DNA of 64,000 nucleotides from Candidatus Limiplasma pullicola. GTDB lineage: Bacteria > Bacillota > Clostridia > Christensenellales > Aristaeellaceae. Under the pieces are notes generated by a model. That model was not told the origin of the DNA. It made no database searches and was given only the letters and a program-made list of their open reading frames with translations. The stretch is taken from positions 1-64,000 of the forward strand of contig DVIV01000027.1 in assembly GCA_018710985.1 (NCBI GenBank), in the 5' to 3' direction. Shown here piece by piece: positions 25,216-44,997 of the stretch. Made by a program: the position numbers and the translations under genes. Each line of letters opens with the position of its first letter. The first letter of the stretch is position 1.

Positions 25216-25230
25216 GCGTGCTACCTCCTT

Positions 25231-29569: not shown

Positions 29570-29575
29570 TATAAT
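29570..29575 (+). promoter_or_regulatory. -10 element of the response regulator gene
   Basis: TATAAT stands 18 bases before the regulator ATG, so the transcript would begin close to the ribosome-binding site AAGGAGG (29581-29587). The matching -35 is poor. The 151-base divergent region is shared with the histidine kinase gene. Confidence 0.45.
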
Positions 29576-29593
29576 GAAACAAGGAGGATGGCC

Positions 29594-30364: not shown

Positions 30365-30543
30365 ATTGCTGCCTTGCAATGCATCTGGTCATGATTCTAT
30401 CAATTTTGGTCATCATTTTACTTTTTGTTTCCGGTACGAATGTTTTATGATAAAGGAAAGAGACGGAAACGCGGCATGCGGAAGATGGCCATTACCTGTG
30501 TATGCGGATCTGCTCTACGATTTTCATGAAGGAGATTTGAAAG

Positions 30544-31938
30544 ATGAAAAAGATCAGCATGCTTTCCTTTATCCTGGTCTTTGCCCTGCTGCTGGCTGCA
30601 TGCGGCTGCGCAATTGCGGAAAACGCGCCGCTGAACGATGTTCCCTGTCAGACGGTCACCCTGGCGGAAGATGATCCCGACTATTTTAAAGAACTGTGGG
30701 CGGCGGAACTATATAACTACAAGATGATTCGAAATTTCACCACCATGTATGAAGAAGCCGGCTGGGATGCTTACCGCGACAAGTGCGTCAATCTGGACCG
30801 CATGGACCCAGAGGCTTTGACCGAGGAGGATCAGCAGGTTATCCTCAACGCCAAGGCGGCCCGCGAGGCGCTGGTGCAGCTGATTCCCTACGACGAGGAA
30901 GTTCTGCTGATCTGGGGCGAAGACATGCCCGTTCTCACGGAGGACGTGGAGAGCCAGTTTACCGCGGAGTCTCAGGACAATGCGGATTTCCGCCCCTTCC
31001 TCATCCCGTATCTGATGGATGATCCCAGTCAGGCCAAGGGCAATCTGATTCTCATCTCCGGCGGCGGCAATTATCTCCGCGGCACGGAGGCTCAGGATGT
31101 GGCCCCCGTATTTGTGGAACTGGGGTATAACTGCTTTTTGCTTCATCGCCGCGTGGCGCCCTATGGCCCCGATGAAATCGCCATGGACCTGCAGCGAGCC
31201 ATTCGTTATGTAAAATACCATGGGGAGGCCTGGGGTCTTGGCGGACTGGATGTGGTCGGTGCTGCGGGTTTCTCCGGCGGCGGCGGAAATGTCTGTACCG
31301 TCATTGAAAAGTATTATGGCGATATTACGCCTGACCAGTTTGATCCCGATTATGTATGCGATGAAATTGACGCCGTAAACAGTGATATGCAGATTGCCAT
31401 GCCGATCTACAGCGCGCGTGCGCTGGAGACGGAAAACCCCAATATTCCGCATCTGTTTATCGCGGTTGGCGAAGCGGACAACTTTGAGGGCAGCATCGCC
31501 ATGTTCCAGTGGGCGCAGGGGCTTGGCCTGCATCCGGAGCTGCATATCTTCGGAAACGTCGTGCATGGATTCGGCCCCGGAACCGTTGGCACCAGCTCCA
31601 CTACCTGGACCGAAGCTGCTGACCTGTACATCCAGCACAACCTGCTCAAGATGGAAAAGTATGAAACCATCCCCGAAGAATACACCTTAAAGCAAACCGT
31701 TCTGGTGACTTGGTTCCCCAAGGATGTAGGCGATGTTCCCGTAGATGTCTATGTCAACAGCGACCATAGCAAGTTCTTCCTTTCCTTCTACAGCTGGGGT
31801 GACGATATTCAGGTGGAAGGAATTCTGGTTGGCGACAATGTGGCGGGCGTGACCTTTGACAGCGTGGGATTCTTTACTGAGGATGCACCTAAAATGTGGG
31901 CGCTGACTGACCCCAACGCGTGGACGCCTGTCAAATAA
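30544..31938 (+). CDS. Exported alpha/beta-hydrolase (esterase-like), paralogue C, predicted lipoprotein
   Basis: A 464-residue paralogue of the 17740 and 19433 products: NLILISGGGNYLRG, nucleophile elbow GFSGGGGN (Ser244), AVGEADN where the others have DD, and His in VVHGFGPG. Unlike its paralogues, its signal sequence contains a lipobox (LLLAACGC), so it may be anchored to the outer face of the membrane. It stands alone on the plus strand behind the response regulator, with AAGGAG at 30530-30535 before the ATG, and is followed by a strong hairpin. Extracellular deacylation of glycans is the working guess. Confidence 0.75.
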   Translation: MKKISMLSFILVFALLLAACGCAIAENAPLNDVPCQTVTLAEDDPDYFKELWAAELYNYKMIRNFTTMYEEAGWDAYRDKCVNLDRMDPEALTEEDQQVILNAKAAREALVQLIPYDEEVLLIWGEDMPVLTEDVESQFTAESQDNADFRPFLIPYLMDDPSQAKGNLILISGGGNYLRGTEAQDVAPVFVELGYNCFLLHRRVAPYGPDEIAMDLQRAIRYVKYHGEAWGLGGLDVVGAAGFSGGGGNVCTVIEKYYGDITPDQFDPDYVCDEIDAVNSDMQIAMPIYSARALETENPNIPHLFIAVGEADNFEGSIAMFQWAQGLGLHPELHIFGNVVHGFGPGTVGTSSTTWTEAADLYIQHNLLKMEKYETIPEEYTLKQTVLVTWFPKDVGDVPVDVYVNSDHSKFFLSFYSWGDDIQVEGILVGDNVAGVTFDSVGFFTEDAPKMWALTDPNAWTPVK

Positions 31939-31988
31939 CTGAGCAATACAGTTGCTGCGGCAAGAGACATCTTTGATTTTCATTGGTT

Positions 31989-32024
31989 ACAAGGCTCGTA
32001 ATTCTTATGAATTATGGGCCTTGT
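31989..32024 (+). terminator. 16-bp stem-loop after esterase C
   Basis: Positions 31989-32004 pair with 32009-32024 (16 pairs, two of them G-T) around a TTAT loop. There is no long T-run after it, but the stability and position 50 bases past the stop suggest a terminator or 3' stabiliser. Confidence 0.6.
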
Positions 32025-32161
32025 CTTATGAAATGGCTCGTTTTATATGCCATGAATACATGTGTGTATATGTCGCCGTCTTCAAATGGCTGGAATTAAC
32101 TATGATTTTTCGTCGCAAGTGGGGTTCACTGGCAGAGCTGCAGAAAAGATGGAAAGTATGA

Positions 32162-32329
32162 ATCAACATATATATAGAAGGCATTTTGTATGTGCGTCAG
32201 GCCGCGTCACGCAAGGCGGGCGGGCAGGGAATCCGCTATGTGTGCGAGGTGGAGGGCAGCATCGCCGTGCTGTTCCACGACGAGCCGTACTGGTTTATAG
32301 AACGGGAAGAGAGCGTGTCGAAAGCCTGA
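32162..32329 (+). pseudogene. GC-rich gene remnant without a start codon
   Basis: An open stretch of 55 codons ends at TGA 32327 and reads like a real C-terminus (IRYVCEVEGSIAVLFHDEPY, then WFIEREESVSKA). An in-frame stop sits directly in front of it and no ATG is available; TTG or GTG codons inside are possible starts without a good ribosome site. Its base composition is like the GC-rich transfer module and unlike the AT-rich flanks. I take it as a leftover of element backbone trapped between the two cargo blocks. The family is not recognised. Confidence 0.4.
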
Positions 32330-32399
32330 CAAAAAGCGATAACAAGCGCGTAGCAGGCACAATGTGCCTATCTGGGGGTTGGGGATGCCCCAATCAGCA

Positions 32400-32438
32400 A
32401 TCAGCCGGTTTTGCGTCAGGCAGAACCGGCTGATTTTT
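32400..32438. terminator. Perfect 11-bp hairpin downstream of agrB
   Basis: ATCAGCCGGTT (32400-32410) pairs perfectly with AACCGGCTGAT (32424-32434) and is followed by TTTT on the plus strand. It lies 40 bases past the agrB stop on the minus strand and could end the agr transcript and the transcript coming from the left. Confidence 0.6.
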
Positions 32439-32478
32439 GCAGTTCCTTATAAGGACTGCCCTGCTTGCTACGATTGTA

Positions 32479-33054
32479 TTAAGCATTGCGCCCCTTAGCT
32501 TTTTGAAAAACAGCGACCAATCGTGACATGGCGCATACACCTGATGCAACGCAAAATGCTTGAAGATATTCGTTTTTTCCCCAAAGCGCAATAGCCATTA
32601 GACATATCCCTTGAACCAGCACCGCTCCTCTCGAGCGTTTGCAAAGGATATCGTGTTTTGCCTGCAGGTATTCTTTATTCTTATGGAGTACAAGCGGGTA
32701 TTTTATCATAAACATCAGTCCGACAGTCCCCAGAATACAGCATATCCATTGGTTGAATGGCAGCAGAAACGTTGCAAGGCAGCCCAGCAGTCCCAATACC
32801 ATTGTTATAAAACAATTCAAATGGGTAGAGGCATGAAAGCCGCCGCCAAGCGTTTGATTGACATAGAATAGCGAGATGATTATCAGCGTTTCAATTCCTT
32901 GCGCCAGCACACAGCCTATCAATACCAACCCTGCTGTACTCAGAAACGTGTATAGGGCAGCATCGAACCCATAAACATACACTTCATGATCTGCGGCAGG
33001 TATGATCGTTCTTTTCTCCAATGCCCTAACGATCATTTCTGCAAATTGATGCAT
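32479..33054 (-). CDS. agrB: AgrB-like peptide pheromone protease/exporter
   Basis: A 191-residue polytopic membrane protein of the AgrB family, which cleaves the AgrD precursor and forms the cyclic thiolactone. The catalytic pair is visible as His74 and Cys81 in GGGFHASTHLNC, with the same seven-residue spacing as in Staphylococcus AgrB. Hydrophobic segments follow. It overlaps the sensor kinase gene by 22 bases, and GAGGGGGA precedes its ATG, so agrA-agrC-agrB form one operon. The precursor is not next to agrB; the likely one is at 35754-35879 on the other strand. Confidence 0.88.
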   Translation of the reverse strand: MHQFAEMIVRALEKRTIIPAADHEVYVYGFDAALYTFLSTAGLVLIGCVLAQGIETLIIISLFYVNQTLGGGFHASTHLNCFITMVLGLLGCLATFLLPFNQWICCILGTVGLMFMIKYPLVLHKNKEYLQAKHDILCKRSRGAVLVQGICLMAIALWGKNEYLQAFCVASGVCAMSRLVAVFQKAKGRNA

Positions 33055-34376
33055 TGCGCATCCCCCTCTCGAAGCGGATAAGGCAGCGTGATCGTAGCAA
33101 CAAAGGTGTCACCCGGTGTTTCAAAAGTGCAAAATCCATCCGCATTTTTAGCGATCATTTCAATGCTGCGGATGCCAAACCCGTGAACGGCGGCGTCATG
33201 CTGTTTCGAGGTTATGAACTTCGTAGAATGACGCCTGATGGTTTCTTTCGCCATTGAGTTTTCACATCGAATGATAAACGTGTCCCACATCCGACAGAAT
33301 TTCAAATGGATCTGCCGTGGCTGACTTGGATCAGAGATTCGGTGAATCCCTTCAATCGCGTTGTCAAGCAAATTTCCGACAATGGTGCAAAAATCAACAT
33401 CGTTGATTGGCAAATCGCTTAGCGGATACTGTTCCAAGAAAAGCTCGATATGGTTTTGTTTGCAAGCCAGCAGCTTCGCTGTCAACAATGCGTCTACGGC
33501 AACGGAACCCGTCACATAAACCTCCGATCCTTCTATCTTATTCTCATATTCCGCTAAATACTTTTTGGCAGTTTCGGAATTTCCCTGCGCAACCAATTGC
33601 TCGATCGCCTGGAGCTGATGCTTCAGATCATGTTGGCGCGCGATGGTATCCTGATAGATGTCAGTGAGCGTCTGTTGATGCTGGCGGGTCATCTGCGCAT
33701 GCTTGAGTGCGATCTGACTTTGATTTTCTCTTTGAACAACGTCCGTCATCGTATGGTATAAAAGGACGGATAGAACGGAGCATGATATCATAGCGCCGTA
33801 GGCGGCGAATATATGCCAATCCGTATTCCACAATGCGGAAACCTGCATTGAAAACAGCATTTCGATCGAAAAGAAAACCGCGATATTCGTGCCAAGGAAA
33901 TAGAGCAACGCCGGAACCGCCAGGGGATAATCCGCCTTTCTCATTATGCGAGAAAATACAAAGAAAACAAGGAAAAGGACCAGATTGGTGGAGAGGACAA
34001 AGATCACGCGAAGAGCGCCTGCTTCCATGAGCATCTCGTGGGTCGCAGAGGTCAACGCTTGACATGCCGCCATCATAAGTCCCACGGTTGTGACAACGAT
34101 TACCTCTTTCACCATGACCCATAGCGCCAGGACATACCAGCGCTTGTCCGATACGCAACGCAAATAAACAAAGAAAATAATGGCGTTTATGCTGTCTGTA
34201 ACAGCGATGTCAAAGAATAAATATAACGTTAGAAACGCGGTGCAAGCCGCCACACAAAGGCAGTCTGCGATCTTAACGGTATTTTCAACAGGAACGCATC
34301 TCTTAAGAAAATACACACAGATAATAGATTGATATAGGTTGATGGAGATCTCAAAGAGCATCCATCCAATTGTCAC
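33033..34376 (-). CDS. agrC: AgrC-like GHKL sensor histidine kinase
   Basis: A 447-residue receptor kinase. The N-terminal 210 residues form about six membrane segments, the usual pheromone-binding part. A coiled-coil with the histidine region (QDTIARQHDLKHQLQ) and a GHKL ATPase domain follow (NLLDNAIEGI; HGFGIRSIEMIA). The start is GTG 34376, preceded by GGGAGGA. It lies between agrA and agrB and should report the mature peptide to the LytTR regulator. Confidence 0.85.
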   Translation of the reverse strand: MTIGWMLFEISINLYQSIICVYFLKRCVPVENTVKIADCLCVAACTAFLTLYLFFDIAVTDSINAIIFFVYLRCVSDKRWYVLALWVMVKEVIVVTTVGLMMAACQALTSATHEMLMEAGALRVIFVLSTNLVLFLVFFVFSRIMRKADYPLAVPALLYFLGTNIAVFFSIEMLFSMQVSALWNTDWHIFAAYGAMISCSVLSVLLYHTMTDVVQRENQSQIALKHAQMTRQHQQTLTDIYQDTIARQHDLKHQLQAIEQLVAQGNSETAKKYLAEYENKIEGSEVYVTGSVAVDALLTAKLLACKQNHIELFLEQYPLSDLPINDVDFCTIVGNLLDNAIEGIHRISDPSQPRQIHLKFCRMWDTFIIRCENSMAKETIRRHSTKFITSKQHDAAVHGFGIRSIEMIAKNADGFCTFETPGDTFVATITLPYPLREGDAQCINLQK

Positions 34377-34403
34377 GATGCATTCCTCCCTTGCGCTCAG
34401 GCA

Positions 34404-35132
34404 TTACCCCTTGTTGCCCATATAGTACCAATCATACTTTTTCTTAAATGCCGCGGCAAAGGTTTGGGAAATAGGGACTGTATCGCGATTGGACAGCGTT
34501 AAGCTGTCTCGTGTGTATCGGCGGATGTGGTCCAAATTGACAATATAGCTTCGGTGACATTGACAGAAAAGCTGCTGAGGCAGTTGCGCAGCAAAGTCGC
34601 GCAGTCTGGCGCGTACTTCCGGTTTTTCCCCGGAGTGCTGAAGCGTCAGATATAAATAATGGGATCGTATCTCAACATAAATGATGTCCGAGAAAGGCAG
34701 AACCAACCGCCGGTCCCTGCAAAGAACAGAGATTTTATCTTTAGACAGCAACGAAAAATGGCGATACGCTATCTCCATACAGTCGAAAATGTCTTCTCTC
34801 AAGACAGGCTTCTTTAGATAGCGCAGCGCACTCACGACGTATCCTTCATATACATAATCCGCGTAATTCGTTACGAATACAATGGAAACGGTTTGGTCAT
34901 GCTGCCGGATTTTCTTTGCAAGCGCCATTCCGCTCAATTCACCTGGAATTTGGATATCCAAAAAAAGCAGTTCCGCTGATAAACCACCCTCCCAGCTCGT
35001 CAAAAGTTCTTCCGACGAATCAAAGCAGATACAAGAAACGTCCTGATGATTTGTGGCTTCTTTCCATTCCTCTATAGCATTGCAAATGGCTTCCTGAAAG
35101 CAGCGCTCGTCCTCGCAAATGATAACACGCAT
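34404..35132 (-). CDS. agrA: AgrA-like LytTR response regulator
   Basis: A 242-residue regulator with an N-terminal receiver (RVIICEDE; phospho-acceptor Asp59 in LLFLDIQIPG) and a C-terminal LytTR DNA-binding domain (IIYVEIRSHYLYLT; CHRSYIVNLDHIRRY). The ATG at 35132 has AAGGAGG 8 bases upstream. It is first in the agrA-agrC-agrB operon, the reverse of the staphylococcal order. Its targets probably include the agrD promoter (35691-35720), by analogy with AgrA. Confidence 0.87.
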   Translation of the reverse strand: MRVIICEDERCFQEAICNAIEEWKEATNHQDVSCICFDSSEELLTSWEGGLSAELLFLDIQIPGELSGMALAKKIRQHDQTVSIVFVTNYADYVYEGYVVSALRYLKKPVLREDIFDCMEIAYRHFSLLSKDKISVLCRDRRLVLPFSDIIYVEIRSHYLYLTLQHSGEKPEVRARLRDFAAQLPQQLFCQCHRSYIVNLDHIRRYTRDSLTLSNRDTVPISQTFAAAFKKKYDWYYMGNKG

Positions 35133-35172
35133 CAGCACAGCCTCCTTGCAATATATTTGCAATCCCGGCTAT

Positions 35173-35201
35173 ACCATATTACACGATAATCATATTGTCA
35201 A
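35173..35201 (-). promoter_or_regulatory. Promoter of the agrA-agrC-agrB operon
   Basis: On the minus strand, a perfect -35 TTGACA (35196-35201) and a -10-like TATGGT (35173-35178) are separated by 17 bases, about 40 bases before the agrA start. Confidence 0.6.
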
Positions 35202-35250
35202 CGTTATGAAAGGCATGATAGCCAAATCGAAAAAGCGAAAACCCCTGAAT

Positions 35251-35562
35251 CTATTCGGAAAGTTTTGAGGCATTGATATACGCTTGAAATATTGCTACGA
35301 TTTTAATTCTTTCAGGTTCGGGCAGGTCATCTAAGACCAGCGCATTATTGTATGTGTTGCAAAGCAGATAATCAGCGTTGACCATAAACAATTCGCAAAG
35401 CTGGATAATATTAGCCGCCGAAGGTGTAGTATCCCCAATCTCCCAGTGATAAACCGTTTTTGGATCGACTTTCAGATGCTTGGCAAGAGATTCTTGATTC
35501 AATCTTCGGGATTCGCGCAGCTCCTTAATTCGTGCACAAATTGCATTATTCATATCTTTCAC
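35251..35562 (-). CDS. XRE-family transcriptional regulator
   Basis: A 103-residue protein with an N-terminal helix-turn-helix of the Cro/C1 type (IKELRESRRLNQESLAKHL, then VDPKTVYHWE). A short helical tail follows. The GTG start at 35562 has GGGGTGA upstream; an internal ATG at 35553 is also possible. It lies between the agr operon and the divergent agrD gene, where it may control the pheromone genes or the element. Which of these cannot be told. Confidence 0.8.
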   Translation of the reverse strand: MKDMNNAICARIKELRESRRLNQESLAKHLKVDPKTVYHWEIGDTTPSAANIIQLCELFMVNADYLLCNTYNNALVLDDLPEPERIKIVAIFQAYINASKLSE

Positions 35563-35690
35563 TTAATTCACCCCATATTATCCTACTTCCTTCCCGATCG
35601 GAATATCTTCCTGTGTGTTACGGAAGTATTTACCGGTTTCGTTACCAAAAATCCCGTTCTGCGCCAAATAAGACCCATTTCGCGCCACAA

Positions 35691-35720
35691 ACGGTTAGGG
35701 CGGTTTTAAGATGATATAAT
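35691..35720 (+). promoter_or_regulatory. agrD promoter with LytTR-type half-sites
   Basis: TATAAT (35715-35720) stands 39 bases before the agrD ATG. The -35 position is occupied by ACGGTTAGG (35691-35699), followed directly by GCGGTTTTA (35700-35708). Both resemble the nine-base half-site bound by AgrA-type LytTR regulators. The lack of a TTGACA box fits an activated promoter. Classic AgrA sites are spaced about one helical turn apart, which is not the case here. Confidence 0.45.
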
Positions 35721-35753
35721 TCAGTTAACACAAAGGAAAAGGAGGGAAACATA

Positions 35754-35879
35754 ATGGAAGCATTGCTGACGCTCATTGCCAATTTCATCTATCAGTATGG
35801 TATAACTTGCGCGGGAGCTCCGAGTTTTCATGGTTCGTATGAAGCACCCGTTCCCAGTCAGCTTCGTAAGCAGGATTAA
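35754..35879 (+). CDS. agrD: AgrD-like cyclic peptide pheromone precursor (41 aa)
   Basis: A 41-residue peptide with the three-part AgrD layout: an amphipathic N-terminal helix (MEALLTLIANFIYQYG), a single cysteine (Cys19) in GITCAGAPS for the thiolactone, and an acidic/proline C-terminal tail (YEAPVPSQLRKQD) that AgrB would remove. AAAAGGAGGG precedes the ATG by 7 bases. The distance from Cys19 to the conserved VP (Pro34) is five residues longer than in S. aureus AgrD-I, so ring size or cleavage site may differ. It is transcribed away from agrB, about 2.7 kb distant, which is unusual because agrB and agrD are normally adjacent. Confidence 0.75.
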   Translation: MEALLTLIANFIYQYGITCAGAPSFHGSYEAPVPSQLRKQD

Positions 35880-36003
35880 ATGAAGCTCTGGGAGCATTCG
35901 TGAATCGCTGAAAAGGGATGGTTCCCTTGGGGGTAGATATTTCATGTTGTCCCAGCGTCAATTCATAACCCTTATTCTTGAAAAGAGAAAGAGGGCTTTA
36001 CGC

Positions 36004-36387
36004 ATGAAGAAACTGGTTGCGGTTGTTTTGGCTCTCGTTCTGGTTCTCTCGGTGACCAGTGCAGCAATGGCTGTTCCGTTCCATATCGTTACCGACAGTA
36101 CTAGCATCTTCAAGGTTGGCACTGCTAAATTTGCAAGGAAGAGCAACACTTGGTACGTCTCTTATGATTTGTCTGCCAGCAACGTCGCGCCCGACCATCG
36201 TGCTGTCGCACGCGTTCATAAAGGCGTAGATGCCGCCAGCGCTACTTGGGTGTATGATGGTGTCAGTTCTTCCCCACACCCGTACTATTCTAACGCTGTG
36301 ATAAACCAAGCAACTCTTGATTTCCGAGGGCGCCTTGACAATACGGCATCAGGTTTGCTGGAGTTCCACGGCAATTTCCAGAACTAA
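36004..36387 (+). CDS. Small exported protein of unknown function downstream of agrD
   Basis: A 127-residue product with a clear signal peptide (MKKLVAVVLALVLVLSVTSA, then AMAVPF). The mature part of about 105 residues is rich in Ser, Ala and aromatic residues (KSNTWYVSYDLSASN; ASATWVYDGVSSSPHPY), has no cysteine and looks all-beta. AAAGAGGG precedes the ATG by 8 bases. It is the first gene after agrD on the same strand, so it may be the output of the quorum system. A secreted bacteriocin-like or adhesion role is possible, but I recognise no family. Confidence 0.65.
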   Translation: MKKLVAVVLALVLVLSVTSAAMAVPFHIVTDSTSIFKVGTAKFARKSNTWYVSYDLSASNVAPDHRAVARVHKGVDAASATWVYDGVSSSPHPYYSNAVINQATLDFRGRLDNTASGLLEFHGNFQN

Positions 36388-36444
36388 ATGCATGTAGTAT
36401 ATAAAGAATACGAAGGCAACCAATTCCTAATTAGGTAGCCGTGT

Positions 36445-36488
36445 AATTTGCCAGAATAGACAGCACAGGCTGTTTATCTTGGCAAATT
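36445..36488. repeat. 44-base long hairpin
   Basis: Positions 36445-36464 pair with 36469-36488 over 20 positions with one mismatch and two G-T pairs, leaving an ACAG loop. There is no T-run. A separate palindrome CCTAATTAGG lies at 36426-36435. The hairpin fills the gap between two exported-protein genes and may end the first transcript, stabilise it, or be a processed RNA. Confidence 0.6.
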
Positions 36489-36530
36489 ATGCATTTGTCT
36501 CTATAACAAGAATACGGGAGTGTGAATAAA

Positions 36531-37541
36531 GTGTTTAAGAAACTGGTCAGTTTGCTCATTGGAATATGCCTGCTGCTGGGAACAACCGCCATGGCGGCGA
36601 AAGAGGAACAACCTATTCCTGAACGATTTGCATCTGTAATGGAAGTGTGCAACGCAACTACCGCTGCAGAAATGCACCAGCATTTGATTGACTATATCAA
36701 CGCAACATGGGCCGACTATTATACAACATCAAATTTACCGTTTCCTGTCCGTTTTGGCGGAACGACAGAAGACCTGATTGCTGATAAGCGAAATTGGGCA
36801 ATGGCAGTCGTGTCCACGAAGGATGTGGATATACAGAAGCTGCTGGACAGCAACATGATCAAGCATTGGAGCTTTTCGTCGTCAGACCCTTCCGTTTTGT
36901 CCTTATGGTTGATCCCACCCGCCCTGAGACCGTATCGACCCAGGGATTTGACACAATCGTATGACATTTTCTATTTTGATTACGATGCCCAGACAGACGA
37001 TGCGACCGTTCTGATTTTTAATGAAAACTATCCCATAACAGAAACATTATTTGCCAGAGCACTACTGGATATGCGCTCAACGGAGCAGAAGCGGGCCATG
37101 GAAGGCATTGCCCGCGTAAATGGCTGGACGGTCGAGGAGCTCATTGCAAAGCCGAAGGATTGGGATGTCGCCGAGGTATTGGTTCCTTATCCTGATGGTT
37201 TGGAACCGCTTGACCAAGCCGGAATGTTGCTTGATTTATCCCAAAGCGATTACTTTGCTTCTCGCGAATCTTTTGAACATATATCGGATTGGTGGACGGA
37301 GGGGCCGAATGGTATTTATAGCGCGGACAAGCGATTCATTGGGGCTCCCGTCTTTCCTTTTACGCTGTTTGACAAGGAGGACCACGCGCTGATACTCATC
37401 GTCAACGCCAAGAGCGACTATGCGGACGCTGCGCTCCGTTATGCGGAGTACTGTATCAAAGGGATGGATGACGTGATGTTTTCTGATATAGATGCATGGG
37501 AAAGTCTCGCCCTGGAGTATTCGACGGAGCTTTGGCAGTAA
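36531..37541 (+). CDS. Exported protein, distantly like a solute-binding protein
   Basis: A 336-residue product with signal peptide MFKKLVSLLIGICLLLGTTA, then MAAKEEQ, and no lipobox. It has a local resemblance to the next gene: VVSTKDVDIQKLLDSNMI here and TTTSFDIKKLMDKGYC there, a segment where many type 1 binding proteins recognise a ligand. Overall it lacks a clear family signature. Start: GTG 36531 lies 10 bases after GGGAG; GTG 36522 is nearer to it. There is no permease gene nearby, so a transport role is doubtful. A host-surface or signalling role cannot be excluded. Confidence 0.6.
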   Translation: MFKKLVSLLIGICLLLGTTAMAAKEEQPIPERFASVMEVCNATTAAEMHQHLIDYINATWADYYTTSNLPFPVRFGGTTEDLIADKRNWAMAVVSTKDVDIQKLLDSNMIKHWSFSSSDPSVLSLWLIPPALRPYRPRDLTQSYDIFYFDYDAQTDDATVLIFNENYPITETLFARALLDMRSTEQKRAMEGIARVNGWTVEELIAKPKDWDVAEVLVPYPDGLEPLDQAGMLLDLSQSDYFASRESFEHISDWWTEGPNGIYSADKRFIGAPVFPFTLFDKEDHALILIVNAKSDYADAALRYAEYCIKGMDDVMFSDIDAWESLALEYSTELWQ

Positions 37542-37646
37542 AGCGTTCAGGTCCTCATCATCCATTTCGACCTTTCTATTGCACATGCCAATCATAGACA
37601 TGTTCGGTGATAGCGCCATACGAAAATAACAAAGGAGGGATCAGCC

Positions 37647-39002
37647 ATGAGAAGAATATGTGTTATGGCAGCAATTTGCCTGACGATCCTCTTTCGATCA
37701 TCTGCGATAGGCGAAACGGAATTGTTTTTTGAAGGAAGTGATAAAAACAGCGCCGCCTACCAAAAGTTTGTAAAATCCCATCCTGAGTGCATTGTAAATA
37801 CGGAAACAAATATCTACCGATCTACCAATGAGATCATCAGCGCTTTGCTAACGGGTGAGTTTCCGTATGATACCTTCGTTATGACAACCACCAGCTTCGA
37901 TATAAAGAAGCTCATGGATAAGGGGTATTGTGCTGCTTTGTCGGAAAGTCCTGTGATACAAAAAGAATTGGAGCAGATGTATGAACCTATCCAGCAGCAG
38001 TTAATATATGAAGGAAAACTTTATGGCGCTCCATTTTATTGTTATATTGGGTACTATGCATATCGTCCAGACGCATGGGCAGCGGCCGGCCTTACGCAAG
38101 AGGATGTGCCAACTTCTTTTACAGAGTTGCTGGATTTTCTTGAAGCATGGGTGGAGCGCATTATAGATGAGCCTGAGGACGACATCAGCGTTTGCAACGC
38201 CTTCGCCAGCGAAGCGTATGGCGAAGATAGTTACATAAGCTATCTTGTTGATCGCCTTATTCAGAATTATATTATGGATTATAATTTTGCGAATAAGCCT
38301 TTGCGTTTCGAAACTCCACTTTTTAGAAGTCTACTGGAACGCTGCCAGAAAATTGGGACAGATTTATACTTATACGAACCAAGGGCCAAAGGTGATCTGG
38401 CGCTCTTTGAGGACTTGCACGGCATGCGAGATCTGGCGTATCTCGTCCCTTTGCGTATGACAAATGAGCAACCTGTTCTGATCAAAGCATCGCTATACAC
38501 AGGGTTTCTCAATGCGCGCAGTCAGCATCAAGAGCTTGCAACAGAATACTTGGAAGCTGTCGTTACCAGCATTGCCCCGGAAATGGGCGCATATTTGTAT
38601 CGAGATGCAGAACCTGTGGAAAATCCTGATTTTAGACGGGCCATGGATAAGCTTCAGGCCGAAATTGACGAGGCTGAAGAAAAACTTGCTACCAGCAAGG
38701 AAATGGAACCAGTTGAGCGCAACACATTACAGGATCAAGTGGATATGATGAAGCGCGAGTGGGAGCAGATGTCCATGTCAGAAGAACGATATCTTATCTC
38801 AGAAAACGATCTGAGGCTGTACCGCAATTATGGTGACAACCTATATTTCCAAGCGCCAAGCATCTTTGACCCGTCCACAGAGGATGGCCAAAATATGAAA
38901 CAGCTGCGGGATAGATTCTGTACAGGCAATCTATCGGCAGATCAATTCATCAGTCGTCTTGATGAACTGGCCTGGATTCTTGAACAGGAAGGCCAGCAAT
39001 AG
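37647..39002 (+). CDS. Exported type 1 solute-binding-like protein without transporter
   Basis: A 451-residue protein with a short signal peptide (MRRICVMAAICLTILFRSSA, then IGE) and no lipobox. The mature part reads like an SBP family 1 protein: TNEIISALLTGEFPYDTFVM, LMDKGYCAALSE and EGKLYGAPFYCYIGYYAYRP. A coiled-coil insertion (about 330-370, DKLQAEIDEAEEKL) is atypical. AAAGGAGGG precedes the ATG. It follows the 36531 gene by 105 bases on the same strand. No permease or ATPase gene is adjacent, so it may be an orphan binding protein or a sensor-type protein. Confidence 0.7.
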   Translation: MRRICVMAAICLTILFRSSAIGETELFFEGSDKNSAAYQKFVKSHPECIVNTETNIYRSTNEIISALLTGEFPYDTFVMTTTSFDIKKLMDKGYCAALSESPVIQKELEQMYEPIQQQLIYEGKLYGAPFYCYIGYYAYRPDAWAAAGLTQEDVPTSFTELLDFLEAWVERIIDEPEDDISVCNAFASEAYGEDSYISYLVDRLIQNYIMDYNFANKPLRFETPLFRSLLERCQKIGTDLYLYEPRAKGDLALFEDLHGMRDLAYLVPLRMTNEQPVLIKASLYTGFLNARSQHQELATEYLEAVVTSIAPEMGAYLYRDAEPVENPDFRRAMDKLQAEIDEAEEKLATSKEMEPVERNTLQDQVDMMKREWEQMSMSEERYLISENDLRLYRNYGDNLYFQAPSIFDPSTEDGQNMKQLRDRFCTGNLSADQFISRLDELAWILEQEGQQ

Positions 39003-39076
39003 CAGGCATCTTTTCGGCATGTTGAGTACAAGTTGGGATGATTGTAAATACGATTGGAAAAAGGGGCGAGAGTCGC

Positions 39077-40048
39077 ATGAAGGATAACAACATCAGGAAA
39101 GTGGCACTGATAGCGATACTTTTGCTTTGCTTGCCATTGGCAGCATTTGCTGCCCCAAATACGAATGCTGATGATGACAGTTATCTTGCCCAGTACATGA
39201 CGCGATATGATTATGTTCTTCCTCAAACGATTATAGAGCAGATCCAAGTAAACTTTACGCCACAGGAAGCAGACTGCGACCTTATACGAGTAAGGTTTGA
39301 TGAAATTCTTTATGATGGGCAATGGATGTATACATCGGCTTCTGTGTGGCCACAAAACCCTGATGAGGTTATCGTCATGCCGGGCGATGTTCAGAAAAAC
39401 GATCTGGTTACCGGCCCATATGATGAAAAGCTGCAAAACGATATGCGTTCGTTCGAGTCCGTTGCAAAAGAAGATGGCAAACAACTTTTGTGTGTATATG
39501 CCTATATGAAAGAGTTTGACGACATAGGTGAATACTTTTTGGATCATTTTCAAAAGGCTAATGGCGAGTCTGTTCTTATGAGTGGCGCACGTATGGCTGG
39601 TGGGTGCAAGGCGATCAAGGCAACGTGGTCGATCAAAGTATACGACGTGGATTTGGAAACTGGTAAATACAGCCTTCTAGGCGAATACCTCTTTCCAATG
39701 AAAATTCTGCCCCTGCAACCATATGCAGAGCGGACATATCGTGTAGTCAGCGGGGAGAAAGACCTGTTTGAGAGCGTTGTGTTGGCTTATACGCCGCTCA
39801 ATACTTATGTTTTTCCCCAGTGGAAAGAAAAACAGGATAGACCGCGTTTTTCGATTGCTCTGGTTGATGCAAATGACACGCCATTTTCTCAAGGGGTGCC
39901 GTTGGCAGCAGACACATATGTATTAGATACCCTTCCTAACGAGATTTTCCTGATCGTCTCGGATTATCATACCGGTGAAATGTTGAGCCGAGTCGCACTG
40001 GTCGCAGATTCATGCTCATTACCAACCGGGCGGCTCGACGATGAGTAG
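39077..40048 (+). CDS. Exported protein of unknown function
   Basis: A 323-residue product with signal peptide RKVALIAILLLCLPLAAFA, then APN. The mature part has two beta-rich halves, with EADCDLIRVRFDEILYDGQW and SALMSG-like strands, and a C-terminal ...PLAADTYVLDTLP region; no known domain is recognised. The ATG at 39077 is 10 bases after AAGGGG. It is the last of four exported-protein genes on this strand. Its stop overlaps the start of a short frame leading into a broken region, beyond which lies an ECF sigma factor gene. It may be the sigma factor's regulated or sensed partner (speculative). Confidence 0.6.
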   Translation: MKDNNIRKVALIAILLLCLPLAAFAAPNTNADDDSYLAQYMTRYDYVLPQTIIEQIQVNFTPQEADCDLIRVRFDEILYDGQWMYTSASVWPQNPDEVIVMPGDVQKNDLVTGPYDEKLQNDMRSFESVAKEDGKQLLCVYAYMKEFDDIGEYFLDHFQKANGESVLMSGARMAGGCKAIKATWSIKVYDVDLETGKYSLLGEYLFPMKILPLQPYAERTYRVVSGEKDLFESVVLAYTPLNTYVFPQWKEKQDRPRFSIALVDANDTPFSQGVPLAADTYVLDTLPNEIFLIVSDYHTGEMLSRVALVADSCSLPTGRLDDE

Positions 40049-40606
40049 GAAGCAATTTATTCAGCCCGTGGAGCCATACGAGGAATGGAGCCATCGTGTG
40101 CTCCGTACCAAAGGTGAGGTGCCTTTGAAACGGTGAAGCTGGAAAAAACGCTGTTGGCTACTTGGCTTCTGGCAGACCAGAGCGCTAGGACAGAACATTT
40201 TGCTGAGCTGGTCGATAAAAATGGTCGGATCCTGGAGCAACACGGCTCTGTTTCTACGGGCATCTATGCAATGAAAGATTTGCCAGATCGAAATTTGGCT
40301 GGCTGTTTCCTGACCGGGCGCAGAACAAACGAGAAGGGTCGAGAAGCCGTCTATGTGCAAGATGAAGTGGTTTCCCAAAGACGAGAATAGCAATGCTGAA
40401 GAGGAACATCTGGAAACGCCCTGTCCCTTGCTTTGGTATCGGTATATCATCACACAGATCAAATTACTGTTCCAGCCGCCTATCCAAACACCGCCCTATA
40501 TAAGCGACCTGCTCAAACGATCGATCGCGCCGTGGAACGTGAGCAAATGCAAAATGATTGGAAAGAGATATGGGCAAAAAACAAGCGGCATGACAAGATC
40601 CAGTAG
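40041..40606 (+). pseudogene. Patchwork of short overlapping frames, probably a decayed gene
   Basis: A 31-codon frame (40041-40136, MSRKQFIQPVEPYEEWSHRV) overlaps the preceding stop and ends in a GTGA overlap with the 40133 frame. After that frame stops at 40390, the same frame resumes behind another stop and ends at TAG 40604 with protein-like sequence (AAYPNTALYKRPAQTIDRAV, then EQMQNDWKEIWAKNKRHDKIQ) but no start codon. Together this looks like one gene cut by stops and a frameshift, or several very small genes. Confidence 0.35.
40133..40390 (+). CDS. Small hypothetical protein, possibly part of a broken gene
   Basis: The longest frame in the decayed stretch: 85 residues from GTG 40133, mostly hydrophilic, with KLEKTLLATWLLADQSART, then EHFAELVDKNGRILEQHG and STGIYAMKDL. 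The start overlaps the preceding short frame as GTGA, which allows coupled translation. It has no signal peptide and no recognised family. A fair reading is the middle part of a gene whose ends lie in the neighbouring frames. Confidence 0.35.
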   Translation: MKLEKTLLATWLLADQSARTEHFAELVDKNGRILEQHGSVSTGIYAMKDLPDRNLAGCFLTGRRTNEKGREAVYVQDEVVSQRRE

Positions 40607-40632
40607 TTGATGGCGGATATGGGGGCCAATGA

Positions 40633-41121
40633 ATGGAGCAGGATGCACTCGTTCAAATCATACAAATGAATTACAAACTGCTCATAGTTCAGGCGTACAG
40701 GATCCTGCGTCACAGTCAGGATGCTGAAGATGCCGTGCAAAACGCTTGCCTGAAAGCGTGGCGGCGTAGCAGTATGCTCCGAAATAGCGACTGTGCGGTT
40801 GCGTGGCTTCGCCAAATTGTTTGTTTTGAGTGCATTGACCTGCTTCGGTCCCGAAAGCGCCAAAGTGCTTTTGTCCATCAGATGGATAGACTTCCCGATG
40901 AAAACAGCAAACAAACGGACAGCCTATTCATGATCGCACTCAACGATGCTTTCCTGTCTGGCTCCAGTCAGCACAGAGAGCTCCTCTACAATAAGTATGT
41001 AATGGGATATACCATTTCTCAGCTGTCTCAAATGATGGGCGTTTCCGAGGGTACGGTGAAAAGCCGATTGTCTCGCGCAAAAAGGCATCTTATAGATGCG
41101 ATGAGCAAGCTATGGTCATAG
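40633..41121 (+). CDS. ECF-type RNA polymerase sigma factor
   Basis: A 162-residue sigma-70 family protein of the extracytoplasmic-function type. Region 2 is seen in QDAEDAVQNACLKAWRR and the following WLRQIVCFECIDLLRSRKR. Region 4 is seen as NKYVMGYTISQLSQMMGVSE, then GTVKSRLSRAKRHL. No anti-sigma gene with a membrane segment is evident downstream, where a 275-base gap leads to the element's own sigma-like gene. It may direct the exported-protein genes upstream, but no shared promoter motif was found by eye. Confidence 0.82.
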   Translation: MEQDALVQIIQMNYKLLIVQAYRILRHSQDAEDAVQNACLKAWRRSSMLRNSDCAVAWLRQIVCFECIDLLRSRKRQSAFVHQMDRLPDENSKQTDSLFMIALNDAFLSGSSQHRELLYNKYVMGYTISQLSQMMGVSEGTVKSRLSRAKRHLIDAMSKLWS

Positions 41122-41357
41122 GCCTCCTTTATAGGGGAGATATAAAGGGGAAGATATGCCTCTTTGATATCGCACAAAGGAGGAAAGCGGCGACACAAAT
41201 GTTGATTAAGCTCGTGGTTTGTCATGATAAATAGGATCAACGTCCGCTGAGAGCGGATGGCTGGCGTATCCATTGGGGATATTCGTTCGCGGCGAATCAG
41301 CGGGTCTGTCTACGCTATTGTTTGGGGCTTTGGACACGTTGCCGTTCTCCTCCTCTC

Positions 41358-41390
41358 TCCTCCCATTCGTCTGAAAAAAGAATGGGAGGA
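41358..41390 (+). promoter_or_regulatory. Hairpin that hides the ribosome-binding site of the 41397 gene
   Basis: TCCTCCCATTC (41358-41368) pairs perfectly with GAATGGGAGGA (41380-41390) around an 11-base loop. The right arm contains the GGGAGGA ribosome-binding site, 6 bases before the ATG at 41397. Translation should be low unless the stem is opened. The rest of 41122-41396 holds no gene that I can support. Confidence 0.6.
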
Positions 41391-41396
41391 TTCTTT

Positions 41397-41816
41397 ATGG
41401 CAACCATTAATTTGCGCGACTATTATCCTTTTTATCACGATGATGCATGGATAGAGATATCAGATGAGCTTGCCAGGGAAATGAAGGCCTGGGAACGGGA
41501 TGAGAACAATTACAAACGCAAGTGCCGGTATCATGGTCATTACTCGCTAGACCGTGAAGATGCTTTGGAACAAAAGATCGCCTACCAAAGCTATTCACCT
41601 GAAGCCCTATATGATGCATACCTTCGATATCATCTGTTTCGTTCCATGCTTTCCCGCTTGTCGGATAAACAGGCCAAGCGCATTTACGCTCACTACTTTC
41701 TTGGCTTAAGCAAAACAGAGATCGCGCAAACGGAGGGTGTTGGAAAAGCCGCTGTATGTGAAAGCATTGATCGAGGATTACAGGAACTAAGGAAAATAAT
41801 CAGGGAATTTTTCTGA
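41397..41816 (+). CDS. Sigma-70-like regulator of the integrative element
   Basis: A 139-residue protein that begins MATINLRDYYPFYHDDAWIE and ends in a sigma region 4-type helix-turn-helix (LSDKQAKRIYAHYFLGLSKT, then EIAQTEGVGKAAVCESIDRG). I recall closely similar proteins annotated as sigma-70 family factors near the recombinase in many Clostridia elements, so it marks the right-hand backbone. The start at 41397 is fixed by GGGAGGA. Its site is enclosed in a hairpin, which suggests post-transcriptional control of element activation. Confidence 0.8.
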   Translation: MATINLRDYYPFYHDDAWIEISDELAREMKAWERDENNYKRKCRYHGHYSLDREDALEQKIAYQSYSPEALYDAYLRYHLFRSMLSRLSDKQAKRIYAHYFLGLSKTEIAQTEGVGKAAVCESIDRGLQELRKIIREFF

Positions 41817-42525
41817 CGGCCCATACATACCCGCAGACAAATCTCCTGATAGATGAGGGGAGTTCCAATGCCTCCTTTTACGCACCTTGACAATCGAATA
41901 CACGGTGTTACAGGTACAATCCCCCGCGCGGCGGAGCGGCGAACGGGGCGGCGCGACGATGGCATAGGCCGGAGCGATCCACGCATCCCGTTGACCCTGC
42001 CGTGGCAGGCAGGTGCGCGACGATGCCGCGCGGGGACAATGAGACTTCCACTACGGCCTCCCACTGACTTGAGGGGGAGTCCCTGCGGTATACGCCCGTC
42101 CGGGGGACGGCGGTACAGGCGGGGCTATGTTGCGGATGGAGCCGTCCGCAGCCTGTGACATCCCCAGGGCCAGCGGGAAGCCTGCCGGGGTGCAGGGCAA
42201 ATACGGCGAATTCCCGCCTCCGATTCATTTGTCATGATTCTGTTTTTGAGAAAAGGGGGATGGTTATGGCCCGAATGCCAGACGGCCGTACCCTTATAGC
42301 GCGCGGGCAGAGCGCACATCCCATACACAGAAGCAGCCAACGCCGTGAGCCGTCGAAGACGATGTGCCGGCTCATCCAGAGGAGAAGCGGGTACGCCGCA
42401 GAGCGGCGGACGCCAATGTGGGCCTGTCAGATCCCCTTGGGTACTGTCTTTTGAGTTTGCCATCAACAAGCAAATATCCTCTCTAGCGCGCATATCCTTG
42501 ACCATCATGCCGCGAAGGAGGCCCT
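41817..42525. other. 709-base stretch with no convincing gene
   Basis: Between the sigma-like gene and the 50-aa protein gene the sequence is GC-rich, with many CGG/CGC runs. Short frames exist on both strands (for example 42274-42454) but have Arg/Pro-rich, unfamily-like translations and no good ribosome sites. It could hold a structured RNA, regulatory DNA or eroded backbone genes. The only clear signal is GAAGGAGG at 42514-42521, which belongs to the next gene. Confidence 0.5.
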
Positions 42526-42678
42526 ATGAAAGAGAAAGAGCTGATCGTGACCTGTGAGTATAACAAGGAACCGCAGGATATCAAAAAAATCATACAGCAA
42601 TCGTTTTTGATTTACATGCAGCGGGAGCTGAAAGACAATGCCCATAACCTTGCGCTGAAATCGGCCTGTCATGTATGA
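42526..42678 (+). CDS. Small protein preceding the serine recombinase (50 aa)
   Basis: A 50-residue protein, MKEKELIVTCEYNKEPQDIK, with a helical middle (IIQQSFLIYMQRELKDNAHN). GAAGGAGG lies 5 bases before the ATG. It ends 39 bases before the recombinase start, so both are probably one transcript. Short proteins of similar look stand before recombinases in related elements. It may be an excision or regulatory accessory protein, but no fold is recognised. Confidence 0.6.
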   Translation: MKEKELIVTCEYNKEPQDIKKIIQQSFLIYMQRELKDNAHNLALKSACHV

Positions 42679-42717
42679 TGAGTATGTTGAATGGCCGCTT
42701 GTTTTCGGAGGGATACG

Positions 42718-44295
42718 ATGTATTTGAAAATAAGCGAACCCATGGCATATCATGTGGCGCTCTATATCAGACTGTCAAAGGAGGATGAGAGCGAGGGGCC
42801 GTCGCAGAGCGTTACCAACCAGCAATCCCTGCTGAACCGTTTTGTCCGCGAGCAGCGCCTGTCCGTTTACGATACCTATATCGATGATGGCTGGAGTGGA
42901 ACCACCTTCGAGCGTCCTGCGTTTCAACGGATGATTCAGGACATCGAGGCGAAAAAGGTCAACATGGTAATCACGAAAGACCTTTCCCGTCTGGGACGCG
43001 ATTACATTATGACGGGGCACTACATGGAGCGGTTCTTCCCCGAAAACCGCGTGCGCTACATTTCCCTGCTGGATGGCATAGATACTGGCGTTGATTCCAC
43101 CGCCAACGATATCACCCCGTTCCGCGCCATCATGAACGACATGTACGCCAAGGATATCTCCAAAAAGATCAAAAGCGTAAAGCATGATAAGCAGCGCAAG
43201 GGACAGTTCATCGGCGGAAAGCCCGTGTTCGGCTATCGGATGCACCCCACGGAGAAAAACCGCATCGTCGTGGATGAAAAAGCAGCGCCCATTGTGCAAA
43301 GGATTTTCGCCATGGCGTTGGAGGGCGTCAGTTGTCGGCAAATCGCCGTCCAATTGAACGAGGCAAATATACCGCCGCCATCTGTCTACGCGGGACTGAA
43401 GCAGGCGCGGCAGGGCGTTTACACGGGGTTGTGGTCCAGCGAACGTATTTCCAATATGCTGCAAAACGAGACCTACATCGGCAATATGGTTCAGGGACGG
43501 AGCGCAAAAATCAGCTACAAGAGCAAGAAGTGTCAGCATCGGGAGCGCAGGGACTGGATCGTTGTAGAAAACACGCATGAGCCCCTGGTCTCCCGCGAAA
43601 CCTTCGATAAGGTACAGATGCTGGTGGCCAGCCGGAAGAACACCCGCTGCCGCACCTACGATTTTCTGCTAAAGGGGTTGATCTTCTGCCACGAATGCGG
43701 CTATCCCCTGGCCGTGCTGAACCGCAGGAACGCCAAGGGTGAGGAAAGCCTGTACTTTGTATGCCGGACGTATCAGCGGTTTACCAAAGCGGGGGTATGC
43801 ACCTGCCACGCCATCAAGGAAAAGCTGGTGACGGACGCGGTGCTGAGCAAGCTTCGGGAGGCATGCCAATCGTATCTCAATGCGGAGGAGTTGCTGCCCC
43901 TTGCCCAAAGATCGTTGGAGGAGGCAAACATGGAGGCGCGGCAAGAGAGCGATGCTCTGGCTGTGGAAAACAAGATTCGCATCCTGACCAACCATTTGGA
44001 CAAGGCGTACATGGATAAGCTCAGCGGCCTTCTGGCGGAGGCGGATTTTGAACGGATCTATGCGCGGCTGAAGGAGGAACGCGCCGTGCTGGAAAAGCAA
44101 CTGACGGCCATGAAGCAGCCCGATTTCTCGCCCGTCAAGCGGCAGCAGCTCGCCAAGGTACTGGTGCGGCGATTTGTGGACAGCGCCTTTGCCAGCAGGG
44201 AGCTTCTGTGCAGCCTGATCGAGCGCATCGAGCTGACGGAGGACAAACGGCTGATTATCCGCTATCGGTTCAGCGCCTTGGGGGAAAGCGCCTGA
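42718..44295 (+). CDS. Large serine recombinase (site-specific integrase/excisionase)
   Basis: A 525-residue recombinase expected to insert and excise the element by serine-mediated exchange. The resolvase domain holds ALYIRLSKEDESEG, DDGWSGTTFERPAFQRM and TKDLSRLGRDYI. The nucleophile should be the Ser in ALYIRLS. A recombinase domain follows (NGxx-like QIAVQLNEANIPPP; WSSERISNMLQNETYIG), then a zinc ribbon (CHECGYPL, later CTC) and a coiled coil at about 400-460. The start at 42718 follows GGAGGG by 5 bases; upstream and downstream ATGs are less well placed. It converges on the interrupted sigK, as the skin recombinase does in Bacillus and C. difficile. Confidence 0.92.
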   Translation: MYLKISEPMAYHVALYIRLSKEDESEGPSQSVTNQQSLLNRFVREQRLSVYDTYIDDGWSGTTFERPAFQRMIQDIEAKKVNMVITKDLSRLGRDYIMTGHYMERFFPENRVRYISLLDGIDTGVDSTANDITPFRAIMNDMYAKDISKKIKSVKHDKQRKGQFIGGKPVFGYRMHPTEKNRIVVDEKAAPIVQRIFAMALEGVSCRQIAVQLNEANIPPPSVYAGLKQARQGVYTGLWSSERISNMLQNETYIGNMVQGRSAKISYKSKKCQHRERRDWIVVENTHEPLVSRETFDKVQMLVASRKNTRCRTYDFLLKGLIFCHECGYPLAVLNRRNAKGEESLYFVCRTYQRFTKAGVCTCHAIKEKLVTDAVLSKLREACQSYLNAEELLPLAQRSLEEANMEARQESDALAVENKIRILTNHLDKAYMDKLSGLLAEADFERIYARLKEERAVLEKQLTAMKQPDFSPVKRQQLAKVLVRRFVDSAFASRELLCSLIERIELTEDKRLIIRYRFSALGESA

Positions 44296-44316
44296 AACTA
44301 AGATTTCAAAAGTATT

Positions 44317-44997
44317 TCAAGCATTTTGACCACGGAGAGATCGCTTACAATACCCGCGCTGCGATACATAGGAGCGCGAAATCCCCAGCATGCCGGCGAT
44401 CTCATGCTGGGGGTGCATCACGCCGTCCCTGAGGCCGTAGCGCAGCGTGACGACGGTGCGCTCCCGCTCGGGCAGGCGGGGAAGCGCCTTTCGCACACGG
44501 TCCAAAGTCACGCGGCGGCGCACCTCGTCCTCCACCATATCCGGGGGCGTCCCCAGCAGGTCGGCGAAGGAAACGGCGTTGCCGTCGCGGTCGGTGCCCA
44601 GCGGCTCATCCAGGCTGATGTCGGCCTGCTGCTTGCGGCTTTGACGCAGGCTCATGAGGATTTCATTTTCGATGCATCGCGCCGCGTAGGTTGACAGCGA
44701 GGTGCCCGTGCGCATGTCGTAGCTGCGCACGGCTTTGATGAGCCCCACCGAACCGATGGAGATCAGGTCGTCAAAGGTGCAGCCGGGCACCTTGTACTTG
44801 CGCGCAATGTGCACGATCAGGCGCATGTTGTGTTCCACCAGCATCTGGCGGGCTGTCTCGTCCCCTTCGCGCATTCTCAGAAGCGCCGAGCGCTCCTCCT
44901 CCGGACTCAGGGGCTTGAGAAAACTCTGACGTCCGGACAGATACCCCAGCAGAAACAGGCAATCCTTGATGATCCAGAACAGAAACGCCGAAATCAA
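44317..44997 (-). CDS. sigK: Sigma-K, 5' part, interrupted by the element
   Basis: This sporulation mother-cell sigma factor is present without its C-terminal end. The 226-residue frame matches SigK throughout: a hydrophobic pro-sequence-like start (ISAFLFWIIKDCLFLLGYL), LKPLSPEEE, LVEHNMRLIVHIARKY, DLISIGSVGLIKAVRSY, LSTYAARCIENEILMSLR and LGISRSYVS in region 4.2. After SYVS the family would continue RIEK; here it reads QRGYCK for a few residues and stops. I set the start at TTG 44997, with GGAGGGG 7 bases before it. The missing end should lie at the left end of the element, outside the window. Excision could restore sigK, as with skin elements, or the gene may be dead. Confidence 0.85.
   Translation of the reverse strand: MISAFLFWIIKDCLFLLGYLSGRQSFLKPLSPEEERSALLRMREGDETARQMLVEHNMRLIVHIARKYKVPGCTFDDLISIGSVGLIKAVRSYDMRTGTSLSTYAARCIENEILMSLRQSRKQQADISLDEPLGTDRDGNAVSFADLLGTPPDMVEDEVRRRVTLDRVRKALPRLPERERTVVTLRYGLRDGVMHPQHEIAGMLGISRSYVSQRGYCKRSLRGQNA
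44356..44377. other. Candidate right attachment site (attR) within sigK
   Basis: The sigK/element junction falls in GCGCT-gcgatacatagg-AGCGC, a 5-bp inverted repeat (44356-44360 and 44373-44377) around 12 bases. The right half encodes the conserved SRSYVS of sigma-K; the left half is element sequence. Serine integrase sites are imperfect inverted repeats with the crossover in the centre, so exchange probably occurs in or near GCGATACATA. The exact core needs the left end or the empty site. Confidence 0.45.

Follow-up and report, generated by a model that had tools for sequence, protein, structure and literature searches.

A split sigK gene at a recombinase attachment site

The stretch analysed here (the window) comprises 64,000 nucleotides of Candidatus Limiplasma pullicola, taken from the start of contig C63 (93 kb), and contains part of the sporulation sigma factor gene sigK, a large serine recombinase gene next to it and, further away, genes of the integrative and conjugative element (ICE) type. 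The source genome (G000) resembles a metagenome-assembled genome (MAG); it measures 2.78 Mb in 66 contigs and is rated 95% complete and 2% contaminated. The 5' part of sigK lies on the minus strand at 44378..44997, with a TTG start at 44997 in a frame that is open up to 45111. As a preliminary description of this DNA had stated, the minus-strand frame from 44997 is SigK-like through LGISRSYVS, where it reaches the attachment core described below, and then runs into element sequence. Matches to the window SigK at E<=1e-30 were found in 48 of 60 genomes (G000 included), and the best of those outside G000 stop at residues 251-259 of the window protein, so that the break falls at one exact place. 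The SigK of genome G007 is 99% identical to that of the window over residues 1-251 and continues RVEKHAIELLREEIMQPD. The cut separates the codons for SYV-S from that for R and lies near the 3' end of the gene, at a position that we take to be the DNA-recognition helix of region 4.

We then looked for the missing end of the gene. A tail pattern taken from G007 gave a single perfect match in G000, at C39:6489-6511 on another contig, and one other match with two mismatches. The orphan tail on C39 reads RVEKHAIELLREEIMQTD and adjoins both a copy of an 18-bp repeat and an element end with ParA, ParB and VirD4. This 18-bp direct repeat forms the attachment core, at 44361..44378 in the window, with its exact second copy at G000:C39:6469-6486, beside the sole perfect tail match, a coincidence that goes beyond chance. 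On the recombinase side an attachment-site arm (44342..44355) has its inverted-repeat partner beside the C39 copy, and similar arms occur at related elements. The core is thus flanked by the inverted arms TTACAATA and TATTGTAA, and such flanking inverted arms are a feature of serine-integrase attP sites. The preliminary description had called for a 3' fragment of sigK at the other end of the element, and one is present on C39 next to the second repeat. It had placed the attachment site at 44356-44377; the site exists, at 44361-44378. Its RIEK-type SigK end did not hold: that pattern has no match in G000, because the tail in this genus reads RVEKH (RVEKHAIELL).

When the two parts were joined in silico at the repeat, the sigK frame was restored exactly, giving a protein of 268 amino acids. 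The joined gene differs from that of G007 in two amino acids and 21 nucleotides over 807 bases, and 18 of the 21 differences are at third codon positions. The halves are complementary to the base; the two ends lie on two contigs and would belong to one element. A second intact sigK, named in the preliminary description as a refuting condition, was not found in G000. The next-best match (46%, on C29) has a complete tail of its own and a counterpart in intact and split genomes of the genus alike; we take it for sigE, judging by its tail.

The adjacent recombinase belongs to a sigK-associated clade

The large serine recombinase gene occupies 42691..44295 on the plus strand and encodes 534 amino acids (525 from the ATG at 42718), with Resolvase, Recombinase and Zn-ribbon domains in Pfam. 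It is element-borne, adjoins one junction and converges on the sigK 5' part, and its coordinates and domains bear out what had been said of it before. We kept the best 80 of 174 relatives found in genome contigs, with 69-74% identity in the best segment. A sigK half abuts the recombinase in 76 of these 80: in 66 the 3' tail follows it in the same direction, and the other 10 share the window layout, with the 5' part converging on the recombinase. The earlier comparison with the geometry of the known skin elements (sigK-intervening elements) stands as regards a skin-like arrangement, but not as an exact match, since the C. difficile recombinase lies just upstream of the sigK 3' part (PMC5025042), which is the layout of the 66 relatives. 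Among the four relatives without a sigK half near the recombinase, L070 reaches a contig end, L083 contains the attP junction described below, L103 has the 5' part 7.6 kb away, and the last is L112. This locus, from a bin labelled Spirochaetales, shows the recombinase with the usual arm and core and no sigK piece after it.

All 66 of the 3' tails remain in frame to a stop, 16-41 residues on. At tail codons 5-10, which lie outside the search pattern, the proportions differing at first, second and third positions were 0.31, 0.21 and 0.53, and a set of 49 dissimilar tails gave 0.34, 0.23 and 0.56. The open frame together with this codon-position bias indicates constraint on a fragment that has no evident use unless it is rejoined.

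Most relatives come from records labelled Oscillospiraceae or other Clostridia. Some are cultured and have the recombinase next to a sigK half, among them Butyricicoccus pullicaecorum ET57 (L054), Marasmitruncus massiliensis (L132), Caproicibacter fermentans EA1 (L107) and Flavonifractor sp. An82 (L069). A tree was built from 61 recombinases, namely those of G000, of two further genomes of the genus (G006 and G012) and of 58 of the 80 loci, leaving out 22 loci and three viral contigs. The G000 recombinase grouped with that of G012 (support 100/100), and that of G006 with L090 and L118 (100/99). Sequences from Blautia and Choladousia stand next to Oscillospiraceae-labelled loci at short distances, which points to horizontal spread of the clade, with movement between families. 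The three relatives on viral contigs (L134-L136) have contigs that stop too soon past the match for the site to be judged. No recombinase at >=60% identity was found in phage or plasmid records, 676 and 471 of which, respectively, match more weakly.

The core TATGTAT (window 44361-44378; L015, L016, L020, L021) is nearly palindromic, and elements lie in sigK in both orientations. The recombinase tree requires six changes of orientation, at least four of which are forced by well supported branches.

The elements also differ in size. Fourteen loci combine this recombinase with two sigK halves that are separated by 2.4-9.8 kb, and very small elements are seen at L090:9230-11620 (~2.4 kb) and L126:7839-11642 (~3.8 kb). 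When the ICE proteins of G000 were compared with 94 loci (those of G000 included), few matches were obtained in the relatives within the flanks covered. In Flavonifractor sp. An82 (L176-L181), ~103 kb separate a sigK piece (259716-260156), which lacks its own front part, from the 3' tail (~363.5 kb) on one contig; by sequence, this stretch contains a partial VirD4-like gene, an LtrC-like gene and many ABC transporters. At L055, L066, L084 and L100 sigK is apparently cut twice, leaving a middle exon (VANEILM...SRSYV). A different large serine recombinase (582-652 amino acids, IAIYSRKSKFTGKGESI or similar) runs into the 5' side of this exon and the window-type family lies on its 3' side, while pieces of the first third of the gene are elsewhere in those genomes.

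A conserved small gene and a mother-cell type promoter pattern

Upstream of the recombinase, a small protein of 50 amino acids is encoded at 42526..42678 on the plus strand. It is conserved beside the recombinase, had no match in Pfam (five proteins searched) or NCBIfam (four proteins searched), and is a candidate recombination directionality factor. A promoter pattern of the mother-cell type, GCAA-N17-CATATCCT, precedes it on the same strand (42465..42498), and the sequence AACAAGC overlaps the upstream part of this pattern.

We examined the corresponding regions in the relatives. The 83 loci available (the 80 and the three viral ones), less seven with 320 bases or fewer upstream and with G000, G006 and G012 added, gave 79 regions. 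By a mechanical rule, a small open reading frame (ORF) ends close to the recombinase in 78 of the 79, and all of these except that of L126 match one profile (77 of 78; the profile was built from 31 of them). The sequence CATA occurs 25-48 nucleotides before the start of the small gene in 72 of 77 cases (shuffle mean 7.75, maximum 15; control ORFs 51/570), and the longer pattern GCAA-N15-18-CATA in 56 of 77 (shuffle 0.2; control ORFs 2/570). After removal of similar sequences the counts were 46/48 and 34/48, respectively. The -10 of the pattern reads CATANNNT. A RACARNY box, which we take to be the core of the SpoIIID consensus, was present upstream in 26 of 71 segments (shuffle 4.6, maximum 13), and SpoIIID itself was matched in all 17 genomes of the genus, above the cut-off in seven, G000 included. 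A plain sigma-A promoter before the small gene was also considered and rejected, with 0/77 matches to one strict pattern. SigE and SigK have very similar -10 elements, with -35 elements of ATA and AC (PMC3789822). We infer that the small gene and the recombinase are under a mother-cell promoter of the SigE/SigK type.

Split and intact sigK within the genus, and a probable excised form

Among the 17 genomes of the genus, sigK is split in six (G000, G002, G006, G011, G012 and G016), always at the same place and with the same kind of arm, and is intact in ten; G004 (65% complete) gave a sigE-like match only. The 3' tail was located in four of the six split genomes. The recombinase (E<=1e-100) is present in three of the 17, G000, G006 and G012, all of them split, and in none of the ten with an intact gene. 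In G006 a single contig carries both sigK halves at a distance of 6.9 kb, and the recombinase lies between them. A decayed ICE end (ParB 67%) adjoins sigK in G016. The empty site is represented by G007, to which synteny on the 5' side is 95% over 2.26 kb. In G012 (L046, L045) the sigK halves are on separate contigs, and the recombinase lies beside chromosomal-looking genes (SurE-like and others).

A junction of the circular type was found on a metagenome contig, L083. Here the recombinase end, 91% identical over 1.7 kb to the element of G069, is joined via the core to the arm of the opposite element end, which is 94% identical over 66 bp. This stretch, L083:11575-11700, is the attP junction of a related element. 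No sigK piece was recognised in the 14.3 of 18.6 kb covered. The junction probably represents an excised circle, as judged from its sequence.

The passenger is ICE-derived

Positions 1..44360 of the window are the right-hand 44 kb of the element, which we take to continue on contigs C16 and C39. Its ICE backbone in the window consists of the type III topoisomerase TopB (180..2267; Pfam Topoisom_bac), a YodL/LPD28 protein (2264..3313; Pfam) and a protein of 3117 amino acids of the SNF2-helicase/methylase type (3541..12894; partial NCBIfam matches, all below cut-off). A MobC/NikA-like accessory protein (12764..13240; Pfam NikA-like above cut-off, MobC just below) and a relaxase of the MobA/VirD2 type (13595..14995; Pfam PF03432) follow, all five genes being on the plus strand. 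The cargo includes a glycan locus (15083..31938), with a GH2 enzyme and a sensor kinase identified by Pfam and a sugar ABC transporter, more hydrolases and esterase-like proteins recognised by sequence only, and an agr-type system on the minus strand (32479..35162; AgrB, GHKL kinase and LytTR regulator, by Pfam). A relaxase, MobC, TopB, a glycan locus and an agr system had been listed in the preliminary description; Pfam confirms the relaxase, the MobC/NikA-like protein, TopB and the agr system, and the notion of a conjugative-type passenger in a skin-like arrangement was right.

The element end on C39 carries ParA, ParB, a DUF6017 protein, DUF3801 and the N-terminal half of a CD1115-type VirD4. 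The only CD1110-type VirB4 match in the genome (NF045971, 1089 bits) is on contig C16 (16.2 kb), together with genes that we call Maff2-like, VirB6-like, NlpC/P60-like, sortase-like and surface-adhesin-like from sequence resemblance. Gene order and direction across C39, C16 and the window fit one ICE, the order being the usual one for such elements. With C16 placed by gene order, a single ICE would extend over the three contigs and measure at least 6.5 + 16.2 + 44.4 = 67 kb.

Two further observations concern C39. Inside traG (L042:1-658), a further serine recombinase begins and is accompanied by a TnpV-like gene; the two, named by sequence resemblance, make up a nested mobile element; a group II intron known to Rfam was rejected as the cause of the break, with no Rfam match at the gathering threshold on the window or C39. 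A few kb past the sigK tail (L042:11051-14858) are collagen-like GXT-repeat proteins, perhaps proteins of the spore surface.

Developmental excision and alternative explanations

We consider it likely that the window contains one end of a skin-type, sigK-intervening element with an ICE passenger, which is excised in the mother cell to rebuild sigK. In growing cells sigK would be split near its 3' end, and hence no complete SigK would be made. SigE/SigK-type transcription in the mother cell would yield the small protein and the adjacent large serine recombinase, and the two would recombine the attachment sites, releasing the element as a circle and rebuilding sigK in frame, while the forespore would retain the element. 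The element would have arrived horizontally and would persist because its target is not destroyed. Both excision in this host and the action of the small protein as a directionality factor are predicted from the arrangement of the locus and its relatives.

Several observations weigh against this reading. The recombinase was not found in the split genomes G002, G011 and G016, nor the sigK 3' tail in G002 and G016; in G002 and G011 the sigK contig stops near the junction, ~150 bases past the break in G011, and the contig of G002 is 5 kb long. Beyond the sigK tail, the chromosome on C39 is not syntenic with G007 (a 78 bp match only), and no contig-end overlaps of at least 12 bases were found among C39, C16 and the window contig. 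A tandem copy or a chimera could also account for the junction on L083. The promoter patterns were picked after inspecting the sequences, which come from related loci; in the -35 zone neither ATA nor AC stands out clearly, and 45 of 71 segments contain no SpoIIID-like box. In addition, only the N-terminal half of traG is present on C39, where other mobile DNA comes after it, and no match to the remaining half was obtained. The present ability of the element to transfer is therefore doubtful, and since no intact VirD4/TraG is present we file the passenger as ICE-derived and not as a proven functional ICE.

A recent ICE insertion could simply have broken sigK, with late sporulation lost and the halves still intact for want of time. 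The insertion may indeed be young, as the nearest relative, G007, has an intact sigK (97.4% identical) and no such recombinase. However, in its site, recombinase, small gene and promoter pattern the locus agrees with elements whose sigK tails have diverged widely at third positions yet remain in frame, and G000 has the same promoter pattern as well as a SpoIIID match above the cut-off, which makes a mere disruption improbable. The loss of SigK that the preliminary description offered as an alternative is likewise less likely, because neither half is damaged and sigK genes that are split elsewhere are conserved. We regard it as highly improbable that the C39 tail and the 5' part in the window come from different strains through an error of assembly or binning. 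The MAG-like genome in 66 contigs, the absence of overlap between the contigs and a 3' flank that is not syntenic with G007 would suit such an artefact, but the genome, at a rated completeness of 95% and contamination of 2%, has a single sigK, the halves fit exactly, share the 18-bp core and have matching arms, and G006 has both halves on a single contig.

A different history would have a compact skin element enter sigK first and the ICE insert later as a guest, in which case the recombinase would not be the integrase of the ICE. This is compatible with a developmental switch. The 14 compact loci, where the ICE queries of G000 match only L101 and that weakly (ParA-like, 30%), the 6.9-kb element of G006 and the fragment of another serine recombinase inside traG all fit it. 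Nevertheless, ParA is the first gene inside the attachment core on C39 (its mechanical ORF start is 31 nucleotides from the core, and its likely start by domain ~180), with no integrase between. No clear second attachment pair was seen on C39, among the 20 of 34 direct-repeat families listed for C16, or at 40000-45200 of the window. The decayed ICE end beside sigK in G016 also speaks against a guest, as does the presence of TndX (34%), the integrase of a conjugative transposon, among the named homologues outside the clade. On balance we think such a guest unlikely.

If the element is excised as proposed, many commensals need the recombinases of mobile elements to form spores and thereby to be transmitted, and sporulation predictions based on MAGs may miscall sigK. 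The conflict between moving horizontally and being inherited through spores could then be tested in cultured species. We suggest tentatively that, in part of the gut Clostridia, sporulation is completed through horizontally spreading sigK-targeting modules, each consisting of the small protein and the recombinase behind one mother-cell promoter and taking any passenger, from 2.4 kb to a conjugative one of 67 kb and perhaps 100 kb. In the present case a conjugative element would use the host's developmental switch as its excision trigger, so that release and SigK formation are one event, and in some species two elements in one sigK would both have to leave.

Comparison with known gene-intervening elements

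The hydrophobic N-terminus of the window SigK, seen by sequence, resembles that of pro-SigK. The skin element of B. subtilis is inserted in the middle of the gene, whereas the cut in the window is near the 3' end. In that species sigK is split and the recombinase of the element (SpoIVCA) excises it in the mother cell, as proposed here, but the passenger is prophage-like and 48 kb long instead of an ICE (PMC5025042, PMC10747680, PMC13141910). The skin element of C. difficile (CD1231, CD1234) has a large serine recombinase beside a sigK half, as in the window; its small protein is required for excision and is under SigE and SpoIIID control, sigK is rejoined precisely, and some strains are without the element (PMC5025042). 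Compared by description, it is prophage-like with 19 genes, in contrast to the ICE passenger seen here. Its recombinase gene is constitutive and only the small protein is mother-cell specific, whereas in the window both genes stand behind one CATA-type promoter. In 2016 the skin element was called an exception in clostridia (PMC5025042).

Two further elements lie in other sporulation genes. The gin element in gerE of Bacillus cereus is non-phage, 28.6 kb long and excised during sporulation by the serine recombinase GirC with the helper GirX; it differs from the window element in its target gene and in having three serine recombinases (PMC5595907). The yin element in yabG of Clostridium botulinum interrupts a sporulation gene and carries, as here, a serine recombinase together with a candidate directionality factor, and some of its genes also occur in ICEs according to its authors, but it is a putatively functional prophage with a different target (PMC10747680).

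As regards the passenger, the likeness is to the CD1110/CD1115-type ICEs (NCBIfam NF045971, NF045973), for which the VirB4 scored 1089 bits (cut-off 325) and the VirD4 half 241 (cut-off 250), and with which TopB, a MobC-like protein and a relaxase are shared. Unlike them, the window passenger is joined to a sigK-associated serine recombinase and has a broken traG. TndX, the large serine recombinase of Tn5397-type elements, is among the best named plasmid-borne homologues of the window recombinase but, at 34% identity, lies far outside its clade, in which the 80 loci kept have at least 69%. TndX is not known to target sigK. Phages that integrate in sigK are on record, and one study reportedly found a 22-kb insertion in this gene (PMC10745906). 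In the available portions of the open-licence literature, we found neither a sigK element described as an ICE nor a report of the window recombinase clade. Of the sporulation gene-intervening elements described in those portions, gin is the non-viral case and the others are prophages or resemble them; the element described here has a passenger of the conjugative type.

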